DNA of 33,404 nt. Origin: Bryobacterales bacterium. GTDB taxonomy: Bacteria; Acidobacteriota; Terriglobia; Bryobacterales; Bryobacteraceae. Under the pieces are notes generated by a model, which saw nothing but the letters and a program-made list of their open reading frames with translations, had not been told where the DNA came from and made no database searches. The DNA lies in assembly GCA_003142185.1 (NCBI GenBank), contig PLOR01000074.1, positions 1 to 33,404 on the forward strand. The letters run 5' to 3'. Shown here piece by piece: positions 2,436-26,221 of the stretch (the stretch's first letter is position 1; each line of letters opens with the position of its first letter). Made by a program: the position numbers and the translations under genes.

Positions 2436-2769
2436 AGCAAAGAGTACGTGGGTGCCTGTCGGTAAGTTCCCGCGCGAAACAGTCCAAACGGACCCCTGGT
2501 GTGCAACTCGGAGTTCGCTGCGCGGGGCCATTTGGCGCCCGTCTCTCAGACTCTCCGACAAGGCTGCGCATTTGGTTAACTGGCACGCTGGCCTGCAACC
2601 ATGCGGTCGCCGAGGCGCCGGGGTGCCCGATGCCGTTCCTTACATGCTCCTGGGCATGCCGAGCCCGGACCGAATCGCTTCGGGCCGACCAACTGCCAAA
2701 TGCGCAGCTTCGTCAGCGCCGCTCACCCCAAGCGTTGAGAATCAAGGGCTACCAGCAAGGCCATTGTCT

Positions 2770-2955
2770 TTACCACCCGATGGCACAATTGTTCGGCGGG
2801 AGCAGGATCTCGGAATCTGGGGGCAATCTGATTTCCATGTCATACCCGGAATTACCGGACGAGATCAGGAGTTCTGAAATGGTTGCGACACTGGCCAGCC
2901 CGAGAAATGGCAACAATCCCCGGCGCGTGCGATTGATGACGGCGATATTTGGCAC
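2770..2955 (-). CDS. Small exported or membrane-anchored protein, copy 1 (shortened)
   Basis: A 61-residue copy of the 68-residue protein at 25596-25802. It begins at GTG (VPNIAVINRTRRG) with GGGAG upstream, then a basic stretch and a hydrophobic segment (LLPFLGLASVATISELLIS) that reads as a signal anchor or signal peptide. The C-terminal part is polar (YDMEIRLPPDSEILL). A CAA to TAA change relative to copy 2 ends it seven residues early, and Cys and Pro replace Ser and Ser near the end. No family was recognised. Its upstream partner gene is reduced to a 3' fragment here, so expression is doubtful. Confidence 0.4.
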   Translation of the reverse strand: MPNIAVINRTRRGLLPFLGLASVATISELLISSGNSGYDMEIRLPPDSEILLPPNNCAIGW

Positions 2956-2957
2956 GT

Positions 2958-3031
2958 TCAGTCTCCCGGCTTCACCGCCGGGCGTTGAGTCCTTATAATC
3001 TCGCCAACGAGAAACATGTCCGTGAGCAGCG
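2958..3031 (-). pseudogene. 3' fragment of the helical protein gene found whole at 25805-26221
   Basis: About the last 24 codons (ending in MFLVGEIIRTQRPAVKPGD) are identical to the end of the complete gene in copy 2. Homology stops at 3031, where unrelated sequence with short repeats begins. The gene has lost its start and most of its length. Confidence 0.8.
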
Positions 3032-3399: not shown

Positions 3400-3657
3400 T
3401 CAGCTCTGAAGTTCGACCGTTTCCCACTCTGAAGAAAACTGCGAACTTGAATCCTCGGCTTCGCTGGGAAGGGAAGCGACGGAGTCGCAAAACTCAGTTG
3501 CGAGAAACGCGATTATCGCGGCTCCGGCGAGCACCCACGACAGCGGGAATCCGGCATGCTCGAAGCGCGAGACCAGTTCGGTGTTGCCGGCCACGACCGT
3601 GGCAAAACACGCCAGCGTCAAAACGACGCCAATCCAATTAAACATCCGCGCAGACAC
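3400..3657 (-). CDS. Small two-helix membrane protein
   Basis: An 85-residue protein when started at GTG (VSARMFNWIG), which has GAGGAGG six bases upstream. The internal ATG (MFNWIG, 3645) would sit 18 bases from that site, and the TTG at 3672 would overlap it. Two membrane segments are visible: FNWIGVVLTLACFATVVAG, and PLSWVLAGAAIIAFLATEF, followed by a Ser/Glu-rich tail (SLPSEAEDSSSQFSSEWETVE). No family recognised. Its upstream region carries a copy of the KdpE-like box found in the signalling region, so it may be an outlying member of that regulon. Confidence 0.6.
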   Translation of the reverse strand: MSARMFNWIGVVLTLACFATVVAGNTELVSRFEHAGFPLSWVLAGAAIIAFLATEFCDSVASLPSEAEDSSSQFSSEWETVELQS

Positions 3658-3714
3658 GATAGGCCTCCTCAACGGTCATTCAAATCCGTCAATTCCAGTT
3701 TACACGAGTTTTTT

Positions 3715-3758
3715 ATGGACCGTGAAAGGTTTTTCATGGACCGTGAAAAAGTTATAAA
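3715..3758 (-). promoter_or_regulatory. KdpE-like box plus 21-base direct repeat upstream of the small membrane protein
   Basis: Read on the minus strand, 3758-3743 is TTTATAACTTTTTCAC, one or two bases from the boxes at 14344, 17298, 18063 and 21458. ATGGACCGTGAAA occurs at 3715-3727 and again at 3736-3748, a 21-base period (two helical turns). A -10 candidate TAAACT lies at 3702-3697. Unlike the other five boxes, no -10 hexamer sits 11 bases beyond it, so this is the weakest member of the set. Confidence 0.45.
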
Positions 3759-12103: not shown

Positions 12104-12805
12104 CTAAGAGGGCTCTCGAAAACGATAACCAAAGTAAGGCTCGGTGAGCAGATACTCGGGAGATGACGGATCATCTTCCAGCTTTTTGCGGAGTTGGTGC
12201 ACGAATGTGCGCAGGTACTCCAATTCCTGCCCGTACTCGGCGCCCCAGACCGCTTGCAGAAGTTTCGCATGGGCCAAAGGCAACCCTGGGCGGTTCATCA
12301 GGTATTGCAGCAAATCGAACTCTTTCGGCGTCAGGCGGAGAACCGAACCGGCTTTGCGCACGGTCCGGTGTGCGGGGTCAAGCTCAATATCACCGATCGT
12401 GATGGGTGCACCCGGATCGGGCTCAGTCGTCGTGGAGCGGCGGACCGCGGAGCGCAGGCGGGCCGCCAGTTCCGGGATGGAGAAGGGTTTCGTAATATAG
12501 TCATCGGCCCCGGCGTCGAGCGCCTCGATCTTGTCCGCTTCCCTATCCCGCACCGTCAGCATCAGGATCTGCAGCCGCGGGTCTTTGCGCCGCATCTCGC
12601 GGCACGTCGCAATTCCGCCGGCACCCGGCATATTGACGTCTAATAGAATCGCATGGAACTGATGCGTTTCAACCTGCTTGAGAGCCTGCTCCCCATTGGA
12701 AGACTCGGCAACTTCGAAGCCGAGCGCGTCCAATGTCCGCCGCAGCACCCGGCGCAGATCGGGGTCGTCGTCGGTAACCAGAATGTTTCCGTTGAGAGCA
12801 GGCAT
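12104..12805 (-). CDS. KdpE-like response regulator 1 (OmpR/PhoB family)
   Basis: A 233-residue regulator. The receiver domain has its acidic pocket (VTDDDP, residues 12-14), phospho-acceptor Asp56 (HAILLDVNMPG), Thr84 (LMLTVRD) and Lys106 (YITKPF), all intact. The winged-helix DNA-binding domain follows (RLTPKEFDLLQYLMNRPGLPLAHAKLLQAVWGAEYGQELEYLRTFVHQLRKKLEDDP), with the KdpE-type pattern around the recognition helix. It lies nine bases after the stop of kinase 1, so the two form an operon read from the promoter at 14359-14327. The product is probably phosphorylated by that kinase and may bind the shared box. Confidence 0.9.
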   Translation of the reverse strand: MPALNGNILVTDDDPDLRRVLRRTLDALGFEVAESSNGEQALKQVETHQFHAILLDVNMPGAGGIATCREMRRKDPRLQILMLTVRDREADKIEALDAGADDYITKPFSIPELAARLRSAVRRSTTTEPDPGAPITIGDIELDPAHRTVRKAGSVLRLTPKEFDLLQYLMNRPGLPLAHAKLLQAVWGAEYGQELEYLRTFVHQLRKKLEDDPSSPEYLLTEPYFGYRFREPS

Positions 12806-14326: not shown

Positions 14327-14359
14327 GTTATACGGCGCGGCGAGTGAAAAAGGCATAAA
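14327..14359 (-). promoter_or_regulatory. Kinase-1 promoter: KdpE-like box, 11-base gap, -10 TATAAC
   Basis: On the minus strand TTTATGCCTTTTTCAC (14359-14344) is followed by 11 bases and TATAAC (14332-14327). The box covers the place where a -35 hexamer would be, as in PhoB/KdpE-activated promoters. A start near 14320 would leave a leader of about 30 bases before the ATG at 14290. Confidence 0.65.
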
Positions 14360-15137: not shown

Positions 15138-17261
15138 CTAGAACTTCACCATCACGCCAACCGAGATCTTCGCTTCGCTACGGCGCAGGTCGGGGAACCA
15201 GACGCCGCCGGAGCTGGCGCAGTTTGTGGTTGCCGTCGGGAGATCGCTAGCTCCGGACGGTGCTCCGCTCATACAGGCGAACTGCCCGGGAGCACCATTA
15301 GTTCCACCGACTTGGTAGCCGGGCGGCGTGACCCCGCCTCGTCCCGCGAAATACGGAATATCGGAGTGACGGTATCCGAACTCTCCCCACCAGGTGATGT
15401 ACTGTCTGGGCATGTACTGGAGAGTGACAGTGCTGTCCCACATGTGCGCCCTTTGGCCGGGAAGCTGCGTGAAGTAAGGTGAGCCCGTCACAGCGTCGGC
15501 CCCGTTGATCGGCGGCAGCAGCGTCAAATAGCGGCCCCAGTTGCTCATGTCTCCGCCGCCAACCGTTACGGCGAACAGGTCCTTGTGGAACCACACCCGG
15601 TTGTACATCATCCACCCTACAAACGAATCCTTGTTCTTGCTGGGCGCGCCGGTGCACTGAATGCCGCCGCCATATTGGCATCCCGCATCCACCGTAAGAG
15701 TGTATGCGATTTTATCGACACCCATCTTATCCGGCTTGTTATAGTACCTTACCTCGATGCTATCGTCCGTGTGAATGCGCTCCGTGTGGGGAAGACCCAA
15801 GTTATCCTGTCCGTAGCCATACTGGTTCGCGACCAGCTTAAACCATTCCGTTGGCTGCCAGAGAAGCTGTCCTCCCAGGCCGGGATGGCCGTTGAACTTG
15901 GCGTAAGATTGCCATCCGTTGATGAACCAGGGTTCGATTTTCAGCTTGTTGGTGGGGAACCACTGGACACGCACGCCGTTGAAGAACCAAGGCGTGTTCG
16001 AGGACACGTACGACGGCTGGTAAGTCCAGTTATCGAAATTATAGTAGCTGAACAAGCCAATGTACGAGACGAAGATTCCCGCGTCCACGTTGAGTCCGTG
16101 ATTCACGTTAAAGTGGTACCCGCCCCAAGCTTCCGACGTGTACTTATATGCGCCGCGAAGGTCCCACTGGCCGACCGCGTAGCTGGCGTCATTGCGGGGT
16201 GTTGTCGTGGCAAACATGCCGAACATGAACAAGATTCTTCCGCGGACGTTCTGCCAGTGAAAATCGCCGCCCACGCTTTCCTGTTCGATCTGCACTTCAC
16301 CGGAACGGAAGGACTCGGTCGCACCGACGATGGTGTGGTCGTGCGGCTGGTTAAAATCCGTCATGTAATTGGTGTCGAACCGGATTTCCGGAGTGAAGAA
16401 CTTCGTATCCAGCACGGTGTCTTTGGAGCGCGTGGTGGCGTTCATCCAGGTGAAATCGGCGAAGGCGAAGGGAGTGAAGTTATCGACCGCGGGACCGGGC
16501 GCCGGCGCCGATAGGGCGTCCGGGAGAGCCGATGCAGCGGGCGCGGCAGCCGGAGCTGTCGCAGCGGGAGCGGCAGTTGGAGCTTGCGCGGGCGCCGGTG
16601 CGTCCTGTGGCACAGGAAGCGGAGTTCCCACGTCGGCAGTCGGAGTATTGGCTACCGGAATTCCAAACGCGGCAATCGGTGGGTACTTCAGTGAAGCAAC
16701 CGTGTCCGGCGGCGCTGTCTGCGATTTTGACACGAGCGCCGGCTGCGGTTTCACCAAGCGCGCCAACAGGCTCTGCTTCGCCTTGTCGCGCGGCGCGGCC
16801 GGTGGTGTTGTGCTCGAATTCGCCGTGATGACTGCTGGCTGAGGAGTGACGTTGGCGGCCATAATGACATCCGTTCTGGTCGCCCGGCCCGCCGTGATTT
16901 GTAACTTGGAAACTGTGGTGTCCGGATAACCGTCGGCTTGCGATGTCACCAAGTATTCGCCTGGAGCGACATTGGGGATCGAGAATATCCCTTCGCTGCC
17001 CGAGATCGTCGTCCAGATGCCTTTGCCGTCGGCCTTGGCCACGGTTACCATCGCGCCGACGATGGGAAGCTTCGATGAAGTTCTGACCACGCCGGCGATA
17101 GCTCCGAACACCGGCTGCACCTGCGTCGGTGCCGTTGAAACGTCTGAAGCCTGAGCCACATTCCGTGGCACCTGTTGCCCATATGCTGGAACGCCAAGGG
17201 ACTCCGCGCCAATCACCAAAGCGAAACACGAAAGAGCAGTCATTATCGATTTGCGAGTCAT
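15138..17261 (-). CDS. BBP2/OmpL-like outer-membrane porin with N-terminal carboxypeptidase-regulatory domain
   Basis: A 707-residue outer-membrane protein. A signal peptide (MTRKSIMTALSCFALVIGAESLGVPAYGQ) is followed by a CarboxypepD_reg-like beta sandwich (FGAIAGVVRTSSKLPIVGAMVTVAKADGKGIW to LQITAGRATRTDVIM, about residues 52-133). A Pro/Ala-rich linker (about 190-255, with PAPAQAPTAAPAATAPAAAP) leads to a C-terminal barrel of about 450 residues. The barrel has alternating aromatic strands of the BBP2 kind (FTPFAFADFTWMNATTRSKDTVLDTKFFTPEIRFD) and ends in SVGVMVKF, the terminal Phe expected for BAM insertion. I recall porins of this type next to kdp genes in some acidobacteria, which would fit the Kdp-like regulators here; this is memory, not checked. 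It has its own box at 17298-17313. Confidence 0.8.
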   Translation of the reverse strand: MTRKSIMTALSCFALVIGAESLGVPAYGQQVPRNVAQASDVSTAPTQVQPVFGAIAGVVRTSSKLPIVGAMVTVAKADGKGIWTTISGSEGIFSIPNVAPGEYLVTSQADGYPDTTVSKLQITAGRATRTDVIMAANVTPQPAVITANSSTTPPAAPRDKAKQSLLARLVKPQPALVSKSQTAPPDTVASLKYPPIAAFGIPVANTPTADVGTPLPVPQDAPAPAQAPTAAPAATAPAAAPAASALPDALSAPAPGPAVDNFTPFAFADFTWMNATTRSKDTVLDTKFFTPEIRFDTNYMTDFNQPHDHTIVGATESFRSGEVQIEQESVGGDFHWQNVRGRILFMFGMFATTTPRNDASYAVGQWDLRGAYKYTSEAWGGYHFNVNHGLNVDAGIFVSYIGLFSYYNFDNWTYQPSYVSSNTPWFFNGVRVQWFPTNKLKIEPWFINGWQSYAKFNGHPGLGGQLLWQPTEWFKLVANQYGYGQDNLGLPHTERIHTDDSIEVRYYNKPDKMGVDKIAYTLTVDAGCQYGGGIQCTGAPSKNKDSFVGWMMYNRVWFHKDLFAVTVGGGDMSNWGRYLTLLPPINGADAVTGSPYFTQLPGQRAHMWDSTVTLQYMPRQYITWWGEFGYRHSDIPYFAGRGGVTPPGYQVGGTNGAPGQFACMSGAPSGASDLPTATTNCASSGGVWFPDLRRSEAKISVGVMVKF

Positions 17262-17280: not shown

Positions 17281-17313
17281 ATTGTGGGGGACGACCCGTG
17301 AAAAAGGTATGAA
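17281..17313 (-). promoter_or_regulatory. Porin promoter: KdpE-like box, 11-base gap, -10 CACAAT
   Basis: On the minus strand TTCATACCTTTTTCAC (17313-17298) differs from the consensus at positions 3 and 6. It is followed by 11 bases and CACAAT (17286-17281). The leader would be only about 13 bases if the ATG at 17261 is used. The spacing is the same as at the other four promoters. Confidence 0.55.
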
Positions 17314-17360
17314 AGCGCCGATCAGGAATTTCTATAACTCACATAACCGGTAAGGCGCGG

Positions 17361-17993
17361 CTATCGGTCTCGGCCGGGCGGGGGAATTCGCAGTTGGTAG
17401 CCGATGGCCCGATCGGTAACGATATATTGCGGGCGCGCCGGATCCGGTTCGAGTTTCTTGCGCAGGTTCTTGATGAATGCGCGGAGAGAATGAACGCCTT
17501 TGGTTGGATCGGAAGGCCAGAGCTTGCGGACCAGCTTCACCGATGGCACGGTTTGATTCATGTGGGCCAACAGGTGGGCGAGAATGCCGTATTCGAGCCA
17601 CGTGAGGCGAACGTCCCCAAAACTTCCTCGAACCAAGCGGGCGTTGAGAACTACGGTCTTGTCGCCGAGCTTGATCGCTTTGAGCGGCGTGCGCCCCTTG
17701 CGTCGCATCTGCCGAGGTTTGCGCCCCACGAACCTTTGCGATGCGGAGTTCGCGGAGCTTGGAAGAGACAGGGGCGAACCGTTGCCCAAGTGTGATGCGA
17801 GCAAGCCCAGAGCGCCCGGCGCGGTCGCCAGCGCGTCCAGCAGGATCAGGCAACACTTGTCGGCGTCGAAAGGCAGTTTGCCCATGTCGAGCGATGCTTC
17901 GATCACGTCATAGCGCTCGCGCGTCAATACTGACTTCAGGGCAGAGCAGTCGAAGTTCTGTCGATGAATAATCAGGACCTTTTCCGGACCCAT
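17361..17993 (-). CDS. Orphan KdpE-like regulator with reduced receiver domain
   Basis: A 210-residue protein from the ATG opening MGPEKVLIIHRQNF (GGAG nine bases upstream). The C-terminal half is an OmpR/PhoB winged helix (RLTWLEYGILAHLLAHMNQTVPSVKLVRKLWPSDPTKGVHSLRAFIKNLRKKLEPDP to GYQLRIP), close in pattern to the KdpE-like regulators nearby. The N-terminal part keeps the first strands of a receiver (VLIIHRQ and CLILLDALA with an Asp) but lacks the acidic pair, the Thr and the Lys. It stops at about 60 residues where a receiver has 115. Phosphorylation by a kinase is therefore unlikely; it may bind the box in a constitutive or ligand-dependent way. No kinase gene adjoins it. It is divergent from the VWFA gene and upstream of the porin gene. 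Confidence 0.8.
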   Translation of the reverse strand: MGPEKVLIIHRQNFDCSALKSVLTRERYDVIEASLDMGKLPFDADKCCLILLDALATAPGALGLLASHLGNGSPLSLPSSANSASQRFVGRKPRQMRRKGRTPLKAIKLGDKTVVLNARLVRGSFGDVRLTWLEYGILAHLLAHMNQTVPSVKLVRKLWPSDPTKGVHSLRAFIKNLRKKLEPDPARPQYIVTDRAIGYQLRIPPPGRDR

Positions 17994-18045
17994 CGTGCGA
18001 TCTCCAGAGTACGCGGTCGGCGGATCGGTTACTCTGCCAGCCACC

Positions 18046-18078
18046 AGTGTAGGAGAGGAGTTGTAAAAAAGTCATAAA
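18046..18078 (-). promoter_or_regulatory. Orphan-regulator promoter: KdpE-like box, 11-base gap, -10 TACACT
   Basis: On the minus strand TTTATGACTTTTTTAC (18078-18063) is followed by 11 bases and TACACT (18051-18046). A start near 18039 would give a leader of about 46 bases to the ATG at 17993. With the next base the box reads as TTTATG and TTTACA separated by five bases. Confidence 0.65.
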
Positions 18079-18108
18079 GGAACTTACCCGTTTCGCCACG
18101 CCGCGCCT

Positions 18109-18141
18109 TTTATGCCTTATTCACAACTTTTGCCGCATGAT
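18109..18141 (+). promoter_or_regulatory. VWFA-gene promoter: KdpE-like box, 11-base gap, -10 CATGAT
   Basis: TTTATGCCTTATTCAC (18109-18124) is followed by 11 bases and CATGAT (18136-18141). It is on the plus strand, 30 bases from the minus-strand box at 18063-18078, so the divergent pair is controlled from back-to-back boxes. The leader to the GTG at 18170 is about 22 bases. Confidence 0.6.
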
Positions 18142-18169
18142 CAAGTGAGAAGAGAAGCAAGGAGGGTAT

Positions 18170-19147
18170 GTGACCAATATCGGTGAGACAATCTGCCGGC
18201 TGGCGTTACGAATCGCAATTGCGGTTTGCGCCGCGAGCTATCTGTTTGCCCAGCCGCTGTCGCTTGCGATGCGTGCCCCCAAAGGCCCGGGAGACGCGGT
18301 GGCCGAGGCTTCGACGCACGTGATTCGGGCGGATGTGAACCTAGTCCTGGTTCCCGCCGTGGTGACGGACCGCAAGGGAGCCACGGTGAATGGCCTCGGC
18401 CGCAATAACTTCACTGTGCTCGAGAACAAAGTTCCGCAAGCGATTGTCGCTTTGAGCAGTCAAGACGCGCCGTGCTCCGTCGGCATCGTTCTCGATTTGA
18501 GCGGCAGCATGCGGACGAAGTTGCGCGCCGCCACCGATGCCGTGCGCGCATTTCTCCAAACCGCAAATCCGGAGGACGAGGTGTTTCTGCTCACTGTCGG
18601 CTCCCGCCCGCATAGCTTGTCGGATTTCACGGCCGACTTCGCCACGCTGCAAAACAGGGTCGTTGCGGCCCGTGCCGATGGCGACACCGCTTTGGTCGAT
18701 ACCGTGTATATGGGCCTGAACCGCTTACGCTCGGGGCGAAAAGGCAGGGGCGCCCTCCTGGTTGTCTCCGATGGCATGGATAACAACAGCCGTTATTCCA
18801 AGTCGGAACTGCTGCGGGTTGTCGAAGAGTCCGACGTGCAGATTTACACGATCGGCATAGCGGACAGTCCGGCTTGGAAGAAGGCCATCGAACTCACTGA
18901 GCAATCAAGGGGTTTGGCTTTCCTGAGCGATCTCGCAGACCGGAGCGGCGGCATGAGTTTCAAAGCCGTTATTTCCGACGATGTCGAGCCGGCCGCACTC
19001 AAGATCGGCCGCGCGATCCGCAACGAGTATGTGATCGCGTATGGCCAGACCAGCGCCAGTGACGCCGGTAAGTGGCGCAGCATCCAGGTCAAGGTGAATC
19101 CGCCGCAGTTCCGGGTCTATGCGCGCGCGGGATACTTTGCGCAATGA
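18170..19147 (+). CDS. Exported VWFA-related protein (acidobacterial type)
   Basis: A 325-residue protein started at GTG behind AAGGAGG; the overlapping ATG at 18168 meets a stop at once. A signal peptide or anchor (ALRIAIAVCAASYLFAQ) precedes a short beta domain (VIRADVNLVLVPAVVTDRKGATVNGLGRNNFTVLENKVPQAIVALS) that is standard in the VWFA-related acidobacterial family. A von Willebrand A domain follows with MIDAS residues Asp109, Ser111 and Ser113 (VLDLSGSM), a Thr/Asp loop (DGDTALVDTVY) and VVSDGMDN. Such domains bind metal and a partner protein, usually at the cell surface. The partner is unknown. It shares a divergent promoter with the orphan regulator, so its expression is probably tied to the same signal. 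Confidence 0.85.
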   Translation: MTNIGETICRLALRIAIAVCAASYLFAQPLSLAMRAPKGPGDAVAEASTHVIRADVNLVLVPAVVTDRKGATVNGLGRNNFTVLENKVPQAIVALSSQDAPCSVGIVLDLSGSMRTKLRAATDAVRAFLQTANPEDEVFLLTVGSRPHSLSDFTADFATLQNRVVAARADGDTALVDTVYMGLNRLRSGRKGRGALLVVSDGMDNNSRYSKSELLRVVEESDVQIYTIGIADSPAWKKAIELTEQSRGLAFLSDLADRSGGMSFKAVISDDVEPAALKIGRAIRNEYVIAYGQTSASDAGKWRSIQVKVNPPQFRVYARAGYFAQ

Positions 19148-19161
19148 TCGGGCGACGGCCC

Positions 19162-19869
19162 TTAAGAATCCGAAGGTGAGCGGAAGCGGTACCCGAGCCA
19201 TGGCTCGGTTAGAAGGTATTGTGGCTGCGTCGGGTCTTCCTCAATCTTTTTGCGGAGTAACCGGACATAGGCGCGAAGATACTCGAGCTCTTGGCCGTAC
19301 TCCGGCCCCCAGACCGCTTGCAGAAGGCGAGCGTGCTCGATTGCGACGTCCTGGTGTTGCATAAGGTATCTGAGCAGTTCGAATTCGGTTGGCGACAGGC
19401 GAACCTCCTCTCCCGATCTGCGCAGCCTGCGGTGCGGGACATCGAGTTCCAGGTTGCCGGCTCGGAGCACAGACTCGCCCTCCGCGCTTTCCACGCGAAT
19501 GCGCCGAAGGACCGCCTGGAGACGCGCGATCAACTCCCGCACCAGAAAGGGCTTCGTCACATAATCGTCCGCGCCGGCCTCGAGCGCCTCGATCTTGTCG
19601 TCCTCCGTATCGCGAATCGTGATCATCACGATTCCGGCACCGGGGGCCAGAGCGCGGATTCGCCGGCACGCTTCCACCCCGCCCATGCCCGGCATGTTGC
19701 TGTCCAACAGCACCAGGTCTACGGACCTTTTGGCGACTAGTTCGACGGCCTCCTCGCCGTTTCGAGCCTCTTCAATAATGAAGCCGCTGGCGCTCAAAGT
19801 GGCGCGGAGCGCGCGCCGCATAGCCGGCTCATCATCCACCACTAGGATTCTAATTCGCTTGGAGTTCAT
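19162..19869 (-). CDS. KdpE-like response regulator 2 (OmpR/PhoB family)
   Basis: A 235-residue regulator with an intact receiver: VVDDEP acidic pair (residues 12-13), phospho-acceptor Asp56 (LVLLDSNMPGMGG), Thr84 (VMITIRD) and Lys106 (YVTKPF). A winged helix follows (RLSPTEFELLRYLMQHQDVAIEHARLLQAVWGPEYGQELEYLRAYVRLLRKKIEEDP). It is strongly similar to regulators 1 and 3 in the recognition region, suggesting overlapping DNA targets. The gene starts 20 bases inside the end of kinase 2, so they are co-translated. Its 3' end is 14 bases from the end of the convergent VWFA gene. Confidence 0.9.
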   Translation of the reverse strand: MNSKRIRILVVDDEPAMRRALRATLSASGFIIEEARNGEEAVELVAKRSVDLVLLDSNMPGMGGVEACRRIRALAPGAGIVMITIRDTEDDKIEALEAGADDYVTKPFLVRELIARLQAVLRRIRVESAEGESVLRAGNLELDVPHRRLRRSGEEVRLSPTEFELLRYLMQHQDVAIEHARLLQAVWGPEYGQELEYLRAYVRLLRKKIEEDPTQPQYLLTEPWLGYRFRSPSDS

Positions 19870-21440: not shown

Positions 21441-21473
21441 AGTGTAGGGTGACCTTCGTGAAAAAGTCATAAA
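21441..21473 (-). promoter_or_regulatory. Kinase-2 promoter: KdpE-like box, 11-base gap, -10 TACACT
   Basis: On the minus strand TTTATGACTTTTTCAC (21473-21458) is followed by 11 bases and TACACT (21446-21441). The -10 hexamer is identical to that of the orphan-regulator promoter. It lies between the end of regulator 3 and the start of kinase 2, so kinase 2 and regulator 2 form a separate operon. Confidence 0.7.
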
Positions 21474-21503: not shown

Positions 21504-22247
21504 TCACTCGTTGTCGGGTAGGGGTGACTCGGCGTCGCAGGGGTTGCGGAAACGGTAACCAACCCAAGGCTCGGTAAGAATGTATTCCGGTTGCGACGGG
21601 TCGTCTTCGATCTTCTTGCGAAGCATTCTCACGTACGACCTGAGATACTCCAGTTCACCACCGTACTCGGCTCCCCATACGCCTTGCAATAGCCGGGAAT
21701 GGGTGATCAACGCTCCCTGATGTTTGAATAGATACGACAGCAGGTCGTACTCTTTAGGCGAGAGATGAATCTCGGCGCCGGACTTAGTGACCAGGCGCCG
21801 CTCCGAATCCAGCTCCAGGGCTCCCGCGCGGAATACGGTTCCGGGAACTTCGTCGGGCGGATGCAGCCTGCGCGTTACCGCCCGCAGGCGCGCGATCATT
21901 TCCCGCAGGCGGTATGGCTTAGTCACAAAATCGTCGGCTCCCGCTTCGAGGGCCTGAACCTTGTCCTCTTCGGCGTCCCGCACCGTCACCATCAGGATGC
22001 CAATGCGCGGCGAAAGGCTCCTGATCTTGCGGCATGTTTCGATGCCGCCCATCCCTGGCATATTGATATCCAGCAACACGATATCGCCGGGCTTATCGCG
22101 CAGGACAATCAGCGATTCCTCTCCATTGCGCGCTTCCGAGACATCGAATCCGCTGGCGGCAAGCGACGTCCGGAGCGCCCGCCGGAACGCGGGATCGTCG
22201 TCGACAATCAGGACCTTGCAGTTCTCACTCGGCAAAAGACGCCTCAC
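21504..22247 (-). CDS. KdpE-like response regulator 3 (OmpR/PhoB family)
   Basis: A 247-residue regulator with an intact receiver: IVDDDP (Asp16/17), phospho-acceptor Asp60 (IVLLDINMPGMGG), Thr in LMVTVRD and Lys in FVTKPY. The winged helix is HLSPKEYDLLSYLFKHQGALITHSRLLQGVWGAEYGGELEYLRSYVRMLRKKIEDDP. The start is GTG (VRRLLPSENC), inside the end of kinase 3 by 23 bases. It keeps the same wing and recognition pattern as regulators 1 and 2, so the three may compete for or share sites. It ends in a short acidic tail (DAESPLPDNE). Confidence 0.88.
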   Translation of the reverse strand: MRRLLPSENCKVLIVDDDPAFRRALRTSLAASGFDVSEARNGEESLIVLRDKPGDIVLLDINMPGMGGIETCRKIRSLSPRIGILMVTVRDAEEDKVQALEAGADDFVTKPYRLREMIARLRAVTRRLHPPDEVPGTVFRAGALELDSERRLVTKSGAEIHLSPKEYDLLSYLFKHQGALITHSRLLQGVWGAEYGGELEYLRSYVRMLRKKIEDDPSQPEYILTEPWVGYRFRNPCDAESPLPDNE

Positions 22248-23682
22248 TTTTCGAAAGCGGCAGAGTCAGACGGAAGGCCACGCCGTCCCCTGCGGTATCC
22301 ACCAACGCCAAGTCGCCTCCATGGGCCAACGCGATCTTGCGCGCGATGTACAGCCCGAGGCCGGAACCCGCGGCGGTTCGCTTGGCATAGTTACCCCGGT
22401 AAAACCGGTCGAAGACGCGGCTCTGCTCGTTCGGCGGAATGGGGTCGCCGTCATTCCAGACATTGATCGCGGCGGCGTTCTCGCCGGCCGAGAGCTCGAC
22501 CAGGACTCGCGCATCCGGCCGCGAATACTTACACGCGTTTTCCAGGAGTTGGCTGATTGCCAGGCTCATCAATTCGGGATCCACCCGCACGTCGCCCGCC
22601 TCGCCATTTTTGTGGAATGAGATCCGGCGGTCGGGCCAGAGCTTCGCATACCGGCGCGCGGATTGCTGGGCGAGTTCGGCCGCGTCGGCCGGTTCCAGAC
22701 GCGGTTTGACTTCTTCCCGGTCCAGCCGCGCCAGCCGCAGCAGTCGTGAGGTCAGATCACCCAGGCGCGAGGCCTCGGTTTCGATCATCCCGGTCAGTTC
22801 CTCCTGGCCCGTAGACATCGGTCCAGTGGCGCGAAGGCCGCCCGCCGCGGTCACGATGGTGGCCAGCGGAGTCTTGAACTCGTGGGCCAGCGCATCGAGG
22901 ATCGCGGAACGCAGTGTCTCGGCTCGCGCGTTGGCCGCTGCGGTCGCGGCCGAGCGAAAGATGCGTGACCTTTCCAACGCGGACGCCGCCAGGCCAGCCA
23001 TCGCAGGCGCCAACAACTCCGGGTTGCGCAATCCCTCGAAGCCAATCGCGCCCAGAATCGTGTCCCGCTCTCGCAGGCAGTACACCACAATCCCGAGTTC
23101 CGGGTACGCCGCGTTGCGGCCCGAGATGTATCCATTGCGGGTCTTCGAGGCCAGATCGCCGCGGGACGATCCGACCTCGTGCAGTTCCATCGCCGCCTGG
23201 TCGAAGAGGCAGACCGCATCCAGTTCGAAGCACGTCCAGAAGGGCCGCAGCAGCGCCGGTCCCAGCGTGGTGGATGGCGCTTGGGCAAACAACTCCGACC
23301 CGGCCCGGTTGAGCCTTGCCATGTTTTCCCGCTGCAGTTTCGATTCGCGCGCTTCCGAACGGCTGCGGGACTGAACTCTGGTCACTACCAGCGAGACGAT
23401 CAGCAGGCAGACCAAAGTGACCGCATCCAGGCCATGAGACACCGTGAAGGTGAAGAGCGGGTCGATGAAGAACCAGTCCAGGCTCGCAGTCGCGAGCACG
23501 CAGACGATGGCGGCCTCCCAGAATCCGCAATCCAGGGATTGCAGAACAACTGCGATGAGGAATAGCAGAGCCGTGGACGCCGAGTTGAGGTGGATTCGAA
23601 AACAGACCAACGTTACGGCGGCGATCAATGCAGCGCCGCGCACCAGGACCAGGGCACGGCGCAATGCATGGCTGGGCGACAT
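22225..23682 (-). CDS. KdpD-like sensor histidine kinase 3 (DUF4118-HisKA-HATPase)
   Basis: A 485-residue kinase from the ATG opening MSPSHALRR; the frame is open to 23817 but the extra 45 residues are unlike any kinase front. Four helices (LVRGAALIAAVTLVCF, TALLFLIAVVLQSLDC, AAIVCVLATASLDWFF, AVTLVCLLIVSLVVTRV) form DUF4118. A GAF-like region, H-box with His267 (LDALAHEFKTPLATI), N-box (SQLLENACKYSRPD) and G2 box (GSGLGLYIARKIALAH) follow. The G1 box is VWNDGDPIPPNE, with Asn replacing Asp and Pro replacing the second Gly. No KdpE-like box lies in the 157 bases upstream; a TACAAT hexamer (about 23713-23708) could serve as -10. The decayed recombinase region begins just beyond, so the original promoter may be lost. 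Confidence 0.85.
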   Translation of the reverse strand: MSPSHALRRALVLVRGAALIAAVTLVCFRIHLNSASTALLFLIAVVLQSLDCGFWEAAIVCVLATASLDWFFIDPLFTFTVSHGLDAVTLVCLLIVSLVVTRVQSRSRSEARESKLQRENMARLNRAGSELFAQAPSTTLGPALLRPFWTCFELDAVCLFDQAAMELHEVGSSRGDLASKTRNGYISGRNAAYPELGIVVYCLRERDTILGAIGFEGLRNPELLAPAMAGLAASALERSRIFRSAATAAANARAETLRSAILDALAHEFKTPLATIVTAAGGLRATGPMSTGQEELTGMIETEASRLGDLTSRLLRLARLDREEVKPRLEPADAAELAQQSARRYAKLWPDRRISFHKNGEAGDVRVDPELMSLAISQLLENACKYSRPDARVLVELSAGENAAAINVWNDGDPIPPNEQSRVFDRFYRGNYAKRTAAGSGLGLYIARKIALAHGGDLALVDTAGDGVAFRLTLPLSKSEASFAE

Positions 23683-23838
23683 TCGATACCGGTTTGGCTT
23701 CAGCTCTATTGTACTTCCGCCGGCGAAACCTGTTCGCGGGTGGTGTCGGATGCAAACTCTCGTCGCGGCCAAACGATTCGACGTTGGTGACGACGACTCA
23801 GCGACTACGCGCCGCATATCGACCAGTGCCCAGGTTCA

Positions 23839-23986: not shown

Positions 23987-24750
23987 TCAATAGACGATGT
24001 TGGCGAGCAGGTTATAAATATGGCACCGGCACAGCGGGCTGCCGCCGTAGGGCTTGCCGTCCCGAGTCGTCCATTGCTTGTTCCGCCAGCCCAGGCGGTC
24101 AAGCCGCCGAACGATATCCAGAACCGGCGTGCCTTCCAGGTAGAACTGGAACACCTCGCGGACACGCTCGGCCTCTTCGGCATTGACGATCGACCGACCA
24201 CCACGCGGGTCGAGGTCGTACCCCAGAATCAAGTGGCCCCGGTCCACTTTCCCTTCTTGCGAGCGGCCACCTGCTTGTCGCGCGTGCGCTCCGAGATGAT
24301 CTCCCGCTCGAACTGGGCGAACGAAAGCAGGACATTTAACATCAGCCTGCCCAGTGATGTGGCCGTGTTGAACTGCTGCGTCACCGACACAAAGCTGACG
24401 CCCTGCTTGTCAAACACGTCCATGATCTTCCCGAAGTCGCGGATGGACCGGCTTAGGCGATCTACCTTTTATGCGACAACGCAGTCCACGTCGCCGGCCT
24501 GGATATCAGCCAGCAGCCGCTTCAACGCGGGCCGTTCCATGTTGGCGCCGGTGTAGCCGCCGTCGTCGTATTGCGCGGGCAGCAGGCTCCAGCCCTCGCC
24601 CATCTGGCTGCGGATGTATGCCTCGCCGGCTTCGCGCTGCGCGTCCAGGGAATTGAACTCCTGGTCCAGCCCCTCCTCGGTGGACTTGCGCGTGTAAATC
24701 GCACAGCGGACTGGCGTCGGGATCAGTGCGAGGTTACTTCGCGCTGCCAT
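23987..24750 (-). pseudogene. Large serine recombinase, broken by a stop and a frameshift, 3' part missing
   Basis: From the ATG opening [10 protein letters not shown] (GGGAGG five bases upstream) the product has a resolvase domain with nucleophile Ser23 ([10 protein letters not shown]). At 24469-24471 a TAA replaces the Tyr codon expected in VV[10 protein letters not shown]; the frame continues in phase ([19 protein letters not shown] to ISERTRDK). Near 24237-24240 one base is missing from a G run. The next frame carries the recombinase domain ([35 protein letters not shown] to LLANIVY) and stops at 23987. About half of the usual length, including the coiled-coil and zinc-ribbon end, is absent. 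It overlaps the end of the DUF2924 gene by 17 bases, as is usual for this pair. Confidence 0.9.
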
Positions 24751-25270
24751 GTTTCCTCCCCGGTCTGCCGCCGAGCCCAAAGAACGCGAACCCGTTCCAG
24801 GGCGTGCCCGTCGCTGCGCGCACCGCCGAGCTCAAGGAACGGTGGAGCTCGCCGTCGTACTCGAAGCCATCCTCCCGGACGCGCACCACGACGTCCTTTC
24901 CCCGGTAGCGTCGCACGAGCATCGAGCCGGGCATCGGGAGCCGCGGGTCGTCGGCCGGGGCGCGTGTCTCAATCGTCCGGCTCTCGTCGAGTTCCGCCTT
25001 CAAAAAGTTCTTCGGGGCCCGGATGCGGAGATCGGCGGCGTCGGCAAGCTCCAGCGCCCGCCGGTGCGCCCGCTCGGAGAGGCCGCCCAGAGCGTTCGCC
25101 TGGATGCGCCAGGCGATCCTCCGGAAGAGGAACTGCTTATGATTCGATCGGCTGCGGTCGCCGAGGCGCCGGGGTGCCCGATGCCGTTCCTTACATGCTC
25201 CTGGGCATGCCGAGCCCGGACCTCCTTCTCCGATGGGATGCAGGCAGGTGGGCCGACGCGCTCGATCCAC
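24734..25270 (-). pseudogene. DUF2924 protein gene, 5' end replaced
   Basis: Residues from about 40 onward match DUF2924, a family usually encoded just upstream of a large serine recombinase: KQFLFRRIAWRIQANALGGLSERAHRRALELADAADLRIRAP, then [49 protein letters not shown]. The normal front of the family (about 40 residues, ending near the SN-Q-FLFRRIAW motif) is missing. The frame instead enters the 70-base repeat at 25153, and the encoded front (MDRARRPTCLHPIGEGG...) is not protein-like. Truncation falls exactly at the repeat edge. The function of the family is unknown; it is probably an accessory factor of the recombinase. Confidence 0.8.
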
Positions 25271-25518: not shown

Positions 25519-25595
25519 GAATCGCTTCGAGCCGACCAACTGCCAAATGCGGAGCTTCGTCAGCGCCGCTCACCCCAAGCGTTGAGAATCAAGGG

Positions 25596-25802
25596 CTACC
25601 AGCAAGGCCATTGTCTTTGCCACCCGATGGCAGAATTGTTCGGCGAGAGTAGGATCTCGGAATCTGGGGGCAATCTGATTTCCATGTCATACCCGGAATT
25701 ACCGGACGAGATCAGGAGTTCTGAAATGGTTGCGACACTGGCCAGCCCGAGAAATGGCAACAATCCCCGGCGCGTGCGGTTGATGACGGCGATATTTGGC
25801 AC
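25596..25802 (-). CDS. Small exported or membrane-anchored protein, copy 2 (full form)
   Basis: A 68-residue protein started at GTG with GGGAG eight bases upstream, two bases after the stop of the preceding gene, so translation is probably coupled. It has a basic front (PNIAVINRTRRG), a hydrophobic segment (LLPFLGLASVATISELLISSG) and a polar tail (NSGYDMEIRLPPDSEILLSPNNSAIGWQRQWPCW). No family recognised. The pair with the upstream gene is conserved in copy 1 only as remains. The role is unknown. Confidence 0.5.
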   Translation of the reverse strand: MPNIAVINRTRRGLLPFLGLASVATISELLISSGNSGYDMEIRLPPDSEILLSPNNSAIGWQRQWPCW

Positions 25803-25804
25803 GT

Positions 25805-26221
25805 TCAGTCTCCCGGCTTCACCGCCGGGCGTTGAGTCCTTATAATCTCGCCAACGAGAAACATGTCCGTGAGCAGCGCGCGCAGATGGATGGACGCGTT
25901 CAGATTGTCGATCAACTGAGAACCGATGATCGGCTGGGCTAGTACCAGTTCAATGGCCGCGAGCGAGTCGCGAGCGTCGCGGTCCAGGACATCGAGGAAC
26001 GCGTGGTACTTCCCGGCGGGCTCCATCCCTTCCTCTTTCACCGCCGTGCGAAAGCTCACGGCCAACCCGGTCAACGCATTGACGGCGCGATTCAGGAATT
26101 CGCGCACTTGTCCACCCGCGCGGCTGCCTTCGTCGCTGGGGAGTCCCTGCGCGGCATAGGCAAGCATGAACTCGTAGCACTCCTCGATGGTTTCACCACG
26201 CTTCAAGATGTTGACGAACAT
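25805..26221 (-). CDS. Helical protein of unknown function
   Basis: A 138-residue, mostly helical soluble protein (MFVNILKRGETIEECYEFMLAYAAQGL; EFLNRAVNALTGLAVSFRTAVKEEGMEPAGKYHAFLDVLDRDARDSLAAIELVLAQPIIGSQLIDNLNASIHLRALLTDMFLVGEII). The pattern of heptads suggests a four-helix bundle. No motif or family was recognised. The frame is intact and followed at once by the small anchored protein, so the two form a gene pair. A GC-rich hairpin (CCCGGC/GCCGGG, about 25812-25828) near the end of the frame lies just before the ribosome site of the second gene. The pair is mobile-region cargo or chromosomal DNA captured by it. Confidence 0.6.
   Translation of the reverse strand: MFVNILKRGETIEECYEFMLAYAAQGLPSDEGSRAGGQVREFLNRAVNALTGLAVSFRTAVKEEGMEPAGKYHAFLDVLDRDARDSLAAIELVLAQPIIGSQLIDNLNASIHLRALLTDMFLVGEIIRTQRPAVKPGD

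Follow-up and report, generated by a model that had tools for sequence, protein, structure and literature searches.

The regulator gene REG4 (17361-17993, reverse strand, stop codon counted) lies in a stretch of 33,404 nucleotides from a Bryobacterales bacterium (contig PLOR01000074.1), here called the window, and encodes 210 amino acids that join half a receiver to a KdpE-type winged helix. The divergent VWFA gene claimed beside it in the earlier note is borne out: its product (18170-19147, forward strand, 325 aa) is a member of TIGR03436 (196.9 bits against a cut-off of 81.25) and carries LDLSGSM, which we take to be the DxSxS metal-site motif. Downstream of REG4 lies the gene of a BBP2-type outer-membrane protein with a carboxypeptidase-regulatory-like domain (15138-17261, reverse strand), and the same strand encodes three response regulators with canonical receiver residues, RR1 (12104-12805), RR2 (19162-19869) and RR3 (21504-22247). 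A potassium system was considered for the locus and rejected, as no kdp transporter was found among the window genes scanned and the genome has its two kdpA loci elsewhere, on other contigs. The regulator reading frame with its KdpE-like winged helix and cut receiver was confirmed with two corrections, one to the start codon and one concerning a retained Asp. The start first assumed, GTG 18044 (227 aa), does not hold, since this codon stands one base beyond the -10-like TACACT (18046-18051, reverse strand) of REG4's own promoter and GGAGA stands 5' of ATG 17993, which makes the latter the likely start. A frame error hiding a full receiver was also rejected: when eight cluster receivers were run by tblastn against 17301-18110, all matches were weak (best E=0.15) and none restored the missing half. 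The frame is open, and its first 100 codons too have coding-type G+C by codon position (0.61/0.47/0.73).

The receiver remnant comprises residues 1-70 (17784-17993, reverse strand), and the claim that it had been cut to about 60 residues agrees with both structure and alignment. Prediction of the N-terminal structure, which the earlier note had proposed, was made with AlphaFold2 from an alignment of nine window and locus proteins (mean pLDDT 74.2, pTM 0.50) and gave only b1 (5-10), a1 (17-25), b2 (29-34), b3 (47-52) and a3 (59-69), followed by a disordered stretch at residues 69-103 with pLDDT below 50; the b4-a4-b5-a5 part of a receiver is absent from alignment and model alike. A profile of the eight cluster receivers aligned weakly, to residues 5-64 only (in a search of four sequences, E was 0.0072 for residues 1-100 and 0.042 for full-length REG4). 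The NCBIfam ArcA model, at 16.5 bits (E=0.0041) far under its cut-off of 334, aligned to residues 4-65. The receiver fold is thus only partial, and Pfam returned no match to Response_reg (PF00072) at E<=1. H10/R11 stand in place of the acidic pair, and the strands that bear the Thr and Lys are missing, as had been claimed from the sequence; to this we add that D53, which aligns with the phospho-acceptor Asp, is still present. Set against the marks of a pseudo-receiver, REG4 lacks the key phosphotransfer residues, but its receiver is not recognised by domain software. Judged from the missing receiver residues and strands, the view that REG4 would act independently of phosphorylation is well supported.

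The DNA-binding part is far better preserved. The winged helix occupies residues 107-201 (17391-17675, reverse strand), with Trans_reg_C (PF00486) matched over residues 128-201 (E=3.6e-16, 59.4 bits, cut-off 26.2) and pLDDT of 87-95 per block of ten across residues 111-200. Foldseek with the REG4 model put KdpE-DNA complexes at the top, with TM 0.44-0.48 by query length. The winged helix shares 35% identity with the KdpE DNA-binding domain 3ZQ7 (TM 0.88 by target length, rmsd 1.6), though REG4 stays under the cut-off of the KdpE model NF007820 (59.6 bits against 325). R171, R178 and T193 are retained and correspond to KdpE R193, R200 and T215, whose Ala mutants failed to bind DNA according to the available excerpts of PMC3264566; this correspondence supports the suggestion of a binding domain of the same kind. 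The recognition helix is less uniform. It begins with HS or HN in all four proteins of the REG4 type (see below) and with EY in 18 of 18 cluster response regulators, so REG4 specificity may differ from that of the cluster regulators. The residue at KdpE Y191 is S169 in REG4 and S, S and N in its three relatives, and this change from Tyr to Ser or Asn is the main reason to doubt that the specificity of REG4 is identical. The box regulon might accordingly control REG4 while REG4 itself binds other DNA sites. The separate clade that the four proteins form, apart from the 18 cluster regulators, also speaks for this, but KdpE shares the H before Y191 that REG4 has before S169, and the three residues essential in KdpE are all kept, so that we hold such a shift in specificity to be unlikely.

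The back-to-back boxes between REG4 and the VWFA gene are real. The REG4 box, TTTATGACTTTTTTACA (18062-18078, reverse strand), and the VWFA box, TTTATGCCTTATTCACA (18109-18125, forward strand), stand 30 bp apart, and each is followed 10 bp on by a -10-like hexamer, the TACACT given above and CATGAT (18136-18141, forward strand), so that REG4 has its own box and hexamer at the spacing of the regulon. Further boxes precede the BBP2 gene (TTCATACCTTTTTCACG, 17297-17313), HK1-RR1 (14343-14359) and HK2-RR2 (21457-21473), all on the reverse strand. The boxes are 17-bp KdpE-like direct repeats, TTYATG-N5-TTYAYG, mostly placed 10 bp ahead of a -10-like hexamer; the six counted in the window fit TTYATR-N5-TTYAYN, and a seventh site at 21911 (forward strand) was dropped because it has three mismatches and lies within RR3. 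In the KdpE site the 6-bp direct repeats TTTATA and TTTACA are separated by 5 bp (PMC3264566, excerpts), and we therefore regard the window boxes as KdpE-type and infer that RR1-3 bind them. The TTG-started open reading frame of HK1 (14365) runs through its box, so that HK1 probably starts downstream of it. For HK3-RR3 (22225-23817) the window shows no box immediately upstream, in contrast to HK1 and HK2.

Counts across genomes set the boxes apart from background. In the 5.79-Mb genome that holds the window, the pattern TTTATRNCTTTTTCAC had four exact and three one-mismatch matches, six of these seven within the window; a further four sites with two mismatches all lay outside it and mean little, given that a reversed-pattern control at up to two mismatches gave 5 sites against 11 for the true pattern. 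Across 13 loci, 53 sites lay within two mismatches of TTYATGNCTTTTTYAYG, against 0, 0, 1, 0 and 0 in five Markov-randomised sets, a count that includes overlapping sites and is enriched by the selection of the loci for a box or cluster. That selection does not affect the -10 signal, which lies outside the search pattern: A at position 29 (42/53) and T at position 33 (46/53) mark a hexamer beginning 11 bp past the box. The exact pattern TTYATGNCTTTTTCAC occurred at 21 sites in 15 of 400 relatives, and its reverse at two (G059, G238). Seventeen of the 21 (12 of the 15 genomes) fall in loci with DUF4118 kinase/regulator genes or BBP2. Elsewhere, the site in G344 has only a weak (24%) match nearby and that in G113 only VWFA homologues (36-38%). 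In G271 an RND-type gene contains the site, and the kinase and regulator homologues in the neighbourhood are distant (about 27%). The only site with at most one mismatch outside the window in its own genome (C109:148067, L132:8068) has a -10-like TAGGAT 10 bp on and precedes a protein that lacks a significant Pfam match and looks secreted by eye. Within the window, a box-like site at 3742-3758 stands before a small open reading frame (3400-3672), with no -10 at the usual spacing, and the pattern is matched less well at the equivalent place in G001, a genome of the same genus. Four loci (L153, L155, L159, L160) carry doubled boxes 11 to 26 bp apart, which suggests that an 11-bp unit, TTYATGNCTTT, is repeated in arrays there.

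REG4 belongs to a small and scattered family. A profile of its DNA-binding domain scored 201.8 bits in its own genome (G000), 196.7 in G154 and 189.1 in G275, with the next among the matches listed from 400 genomes at 99.6 bits (at most 11 candidates scored per genome), and a four-member profile that includes G171 places the type in at least 4 of 237 genomes of the taxonomic family at E<=1e-28 (at most 20 candidates per genome); members could be missed at these numbers of scored candidates. The idea that the type is a common feature of the group was rejected on this sporadic occurrence. A search with whole REG4 over 151 genomes, a set outside which G154, G171 and G275 lie, recovered only REG4 itself at E<=1e-20. 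All four members have a box in the vicinity and BBP2 or RR2 as a neighbour, those of G275 and G171 being divergent from BBP2. Their receivers differ in extent. The G154 member (235 aa) has a full-length pseudo-receiver (Pfam receiver E=0.13, below cut-off) that has lost the acidic pair, carries His at the Asp position and retains the Lys; REG4 has half a receiver; in the G275 member (148 aa) no receiver was found at E<=0.5, and in that of G171 (open frame of 181 aa, start uncertain) none at E<=1. The distance from box end to start codon is 27 bp in G275 and 112 bp in G154, and upstream of the G171 member are a one-mismatch site and, nearer, a three-mismatch site; this member also lacks the Thr equivalent to KdpE T215.

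In a tree of 109 columns and 63 rows (L163 and L187 dropped from 65 as duplicates), the four members form one clade (100/96, with G171 on a long branch) separate from the 18 cluster regulators (100/98). The tree drew on 9 of 80 loci from a contig scan, these 80 being retained from 95 and nearly all matched through the DNA-binding domain only. It places REG4 outside the RR1-3 clade, and on this ground we rejected the possibility that REG4 is a recent copy of RR1-3. The nearest row to the REG4 clade is a pseudo-receiver regulator of G153, in a sister place with only 85/88 support, whose receiver is found by Pfam (E=1.2e-13) and by eye lacks the acidic pair, Thr and Lys and retains the Asp; its gene (L159:13510-14304) follows BBP2 and a small protein gene on the same strand. 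Upstream of BBP2 in G280 lies a gene resembling a regulator (L152:5730-6588) that is split between frames and holds two incomplete stretches of winged helix. To arrange the receivers as full, pseudo, half and none is to read living stages rather than a dated history.

Whether the half receiver belongs to a working gene bears on a further explanation, that REG4 is a decaying relic on its way to being lost as in G001. That genome carries homologues of HK3-RR3, HK2-RR2, VWFA, BBP2, HK1-RR1, CzcB, CzcA, CzcC and KDPG aldolase in a row, and REG4 is absent between VWFA and BBP2, which face each other; its intergenic DNA aligns with the window to about the REG4 stop codon and resumes at the REG4 box, where the matching sequence is altered. 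The frameshifted remnant upstream of BBP2 in G280 and the poorly conserved N-terminal part of REG4, which shares 26% identity with the G154 member over 82 uncertainly aligned codons (differences by codon position 0.63/0.39/0.67), could be read in the same way. However, the alignment of G001 with G000 would fit either a deletion in the former or an insertion in the latter, and REG4 has an open frame, coding-type G+C, a -10, a ribosome site and a conserved DNA-binding domain, in which the differences from G154 (0.35/0.35/0.67 over 110 codons) appear consistent with purifying selection; we consider decay improbable. The divergent position itself has varied occupants. The partner in G154 is HK2-RR2 and in G171 a regulator gene with a partial kinase open reading frame, and G021 and G167 have a small helix-turn-helix gene divergent from VWFA with a box in front. 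Their open reading frames, of 115 and 158 aa, score 32.0 and 23.3 bits against Sigma70_r4, whose cut-off is 24.1. These genes, at L129:11273-11620 and L154:9005-9481, stand where REG4 is absent, so that its slot seems to have been refilled by an unrelated DNA-binding protein.

We propose, at a little short of an even chance, that REG4 is a winged-helix protein deaf to the kinases, its amount set by the local two-component systems, that damps the boxes of its own regulon. Through the box at 18062-18078, at least one DUF4118 kinase/regulator pair of the locus would turn on REG4 expression. The product would then act on its own box, that of VWFA 30 bp away, that of BBP2 and those ahead of the kinase genes; most probably it would occupy them without dimerising, in competition with the phosphorylated regulators, and so dampen the response. 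The signal would be carried by the amount of REG4, not by phosphorylation, and occupancy of the boxes would limit the response. OmpR/PhoB receivers dimerise on the a4-b5-a5 face (PMC12632262, excerpts), a face absent from REG4, and the KdpE DNA-binding domain alone is described, in the excerpts of PMC3264566, as binding each half-site independently at 200-350 nM with no activation. Since the residues essential in KdpE are retained, the dimer face is lost and the lone KdpE domain is inactive, occupancy carried by amount is the plainest model, and competition is likelier than activation. The REG4 box with its hexamer at the usual spacing, the placing of most exact boxes among kinase/regulator or BBP2 genes, the single clade of four box-associated members and the sign of purifying selection also speak for the proposal. 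We infer that REG4 binds the boxes, stays undimerised and acts negatively; the earlier proposal of competition through the same domain is partly supported. Against this reading may be set the Ser at position 169 of the recognition helix, the grouping of REG4 outside the RR1-3 clade, the lack of the Thr equivalent in G171 and the three mismatches in its nearest box, the sporadic presence of the gene, which G001 lacks here, and the poorly conserved N-terminus. The main rival makes REG4 a constitutive activator, induced by the kinases, that would bring polymerase to the boxes it binds and so prolong or strengthen the response by feed-forward. It is the main rival because the PhoB DNA-binding domain can initiate transcription (PMC3264566, excerpts) and the boxes stand just before the -10, with the hexamer 10 bp past the box in the set of 53 sites, an arrangement in which the winged helix, once bound, could reach polymerase. 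The excerpted 2025 review (PMC12632262) also proposes that a two-component system may work simply through the quantity of a pseudo-receiver protein that is constitutively active. KdpE, the closest characterised relative, is inactive as a lone DNA-binding domain, but its box in E. coli kdp lies at -72 to -50 (PMC3264566, excerpts), unlike the boxes here, and with the PhoB precedent this leaves lone-domain activation by REG4 possible, if rather doubtful in our estimate. For the wider history we suggest, tentatively and at somewhat below even probability, that the REG4 lineage shed its receiver stepwise and kept a kinase-responsive promoter, so that control by amount would have replaced control by phosphorylation and made REG4 a governor of the parent boxes.

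Among atypical OmpR/PhoB regulators, HP1043 retains a whole receiver domain, and to our knowledge neither HP1043 nor ChxR stands in a local box regulon. Both are described in excerpted accounts as acting free of phosphorylation, as proposed for REG4, and HP1043 resembles it further in a highly degenerate receiver, whereas ChxR has a normal receiver structure and dimerises. KdpE of E. coli (OmpR/PhoB; 4KNY, 4KFC, 3ZQ7) is like REG4 in its winged helix and three essential DNA-contact residues and like its locus in a direct-repeat box with a 5-bp spacer; it differs in having a full receiver and a box far upstream, where those of the window directly precede the -10. In CmrT/CmrR of Clostridioides difficile, a phosphorylation-defective OmpR-type regulator likewise stands under a true response regulator of the same system, but CmrT probably has a pseudo-receiver and forms homodimers (PMC12548384, PMC12632262, both excerpted), and in REG4 half the receiver is lost and with it the usual dimer face. 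NnaR, likened here by description only, is named a response regulator despite having no receiver, and the same review calls the on/off switching of phosphorylation-blind pseudo-receiver proteins a mystery (PMC12632262, excerpts). Here a natural series offers one DNA-binding domain with receivers at different stages of loss, recognisable regulons and readable promoters, and would allow the role of each lost receiver piece to be measured. Among the matches listed from the open-licence literature, no description of such a receiver-loss series appeared, and nothing relevant to an acidobacterial DUF4118/porin regulon. The receiver series and the promoter geometry of the boxes extend beyond what had been read from the window earlier.

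The cluster of about 22 kb is flanked by a direct repeat (2602-3031 against 25153-25222 and 25519-25878), of which 360 bp match at 98% and 70 bp at 100%. The window also holds a phage-type integrase gene (1182-2108) and, upstream of HK3-RR3, a resolvase-domain fragment (24472-24780), and in G001 two resolvase-family genes adjoin the cluster (L127:1-2332). The REG4 cluster may be mobile, now or formerly.
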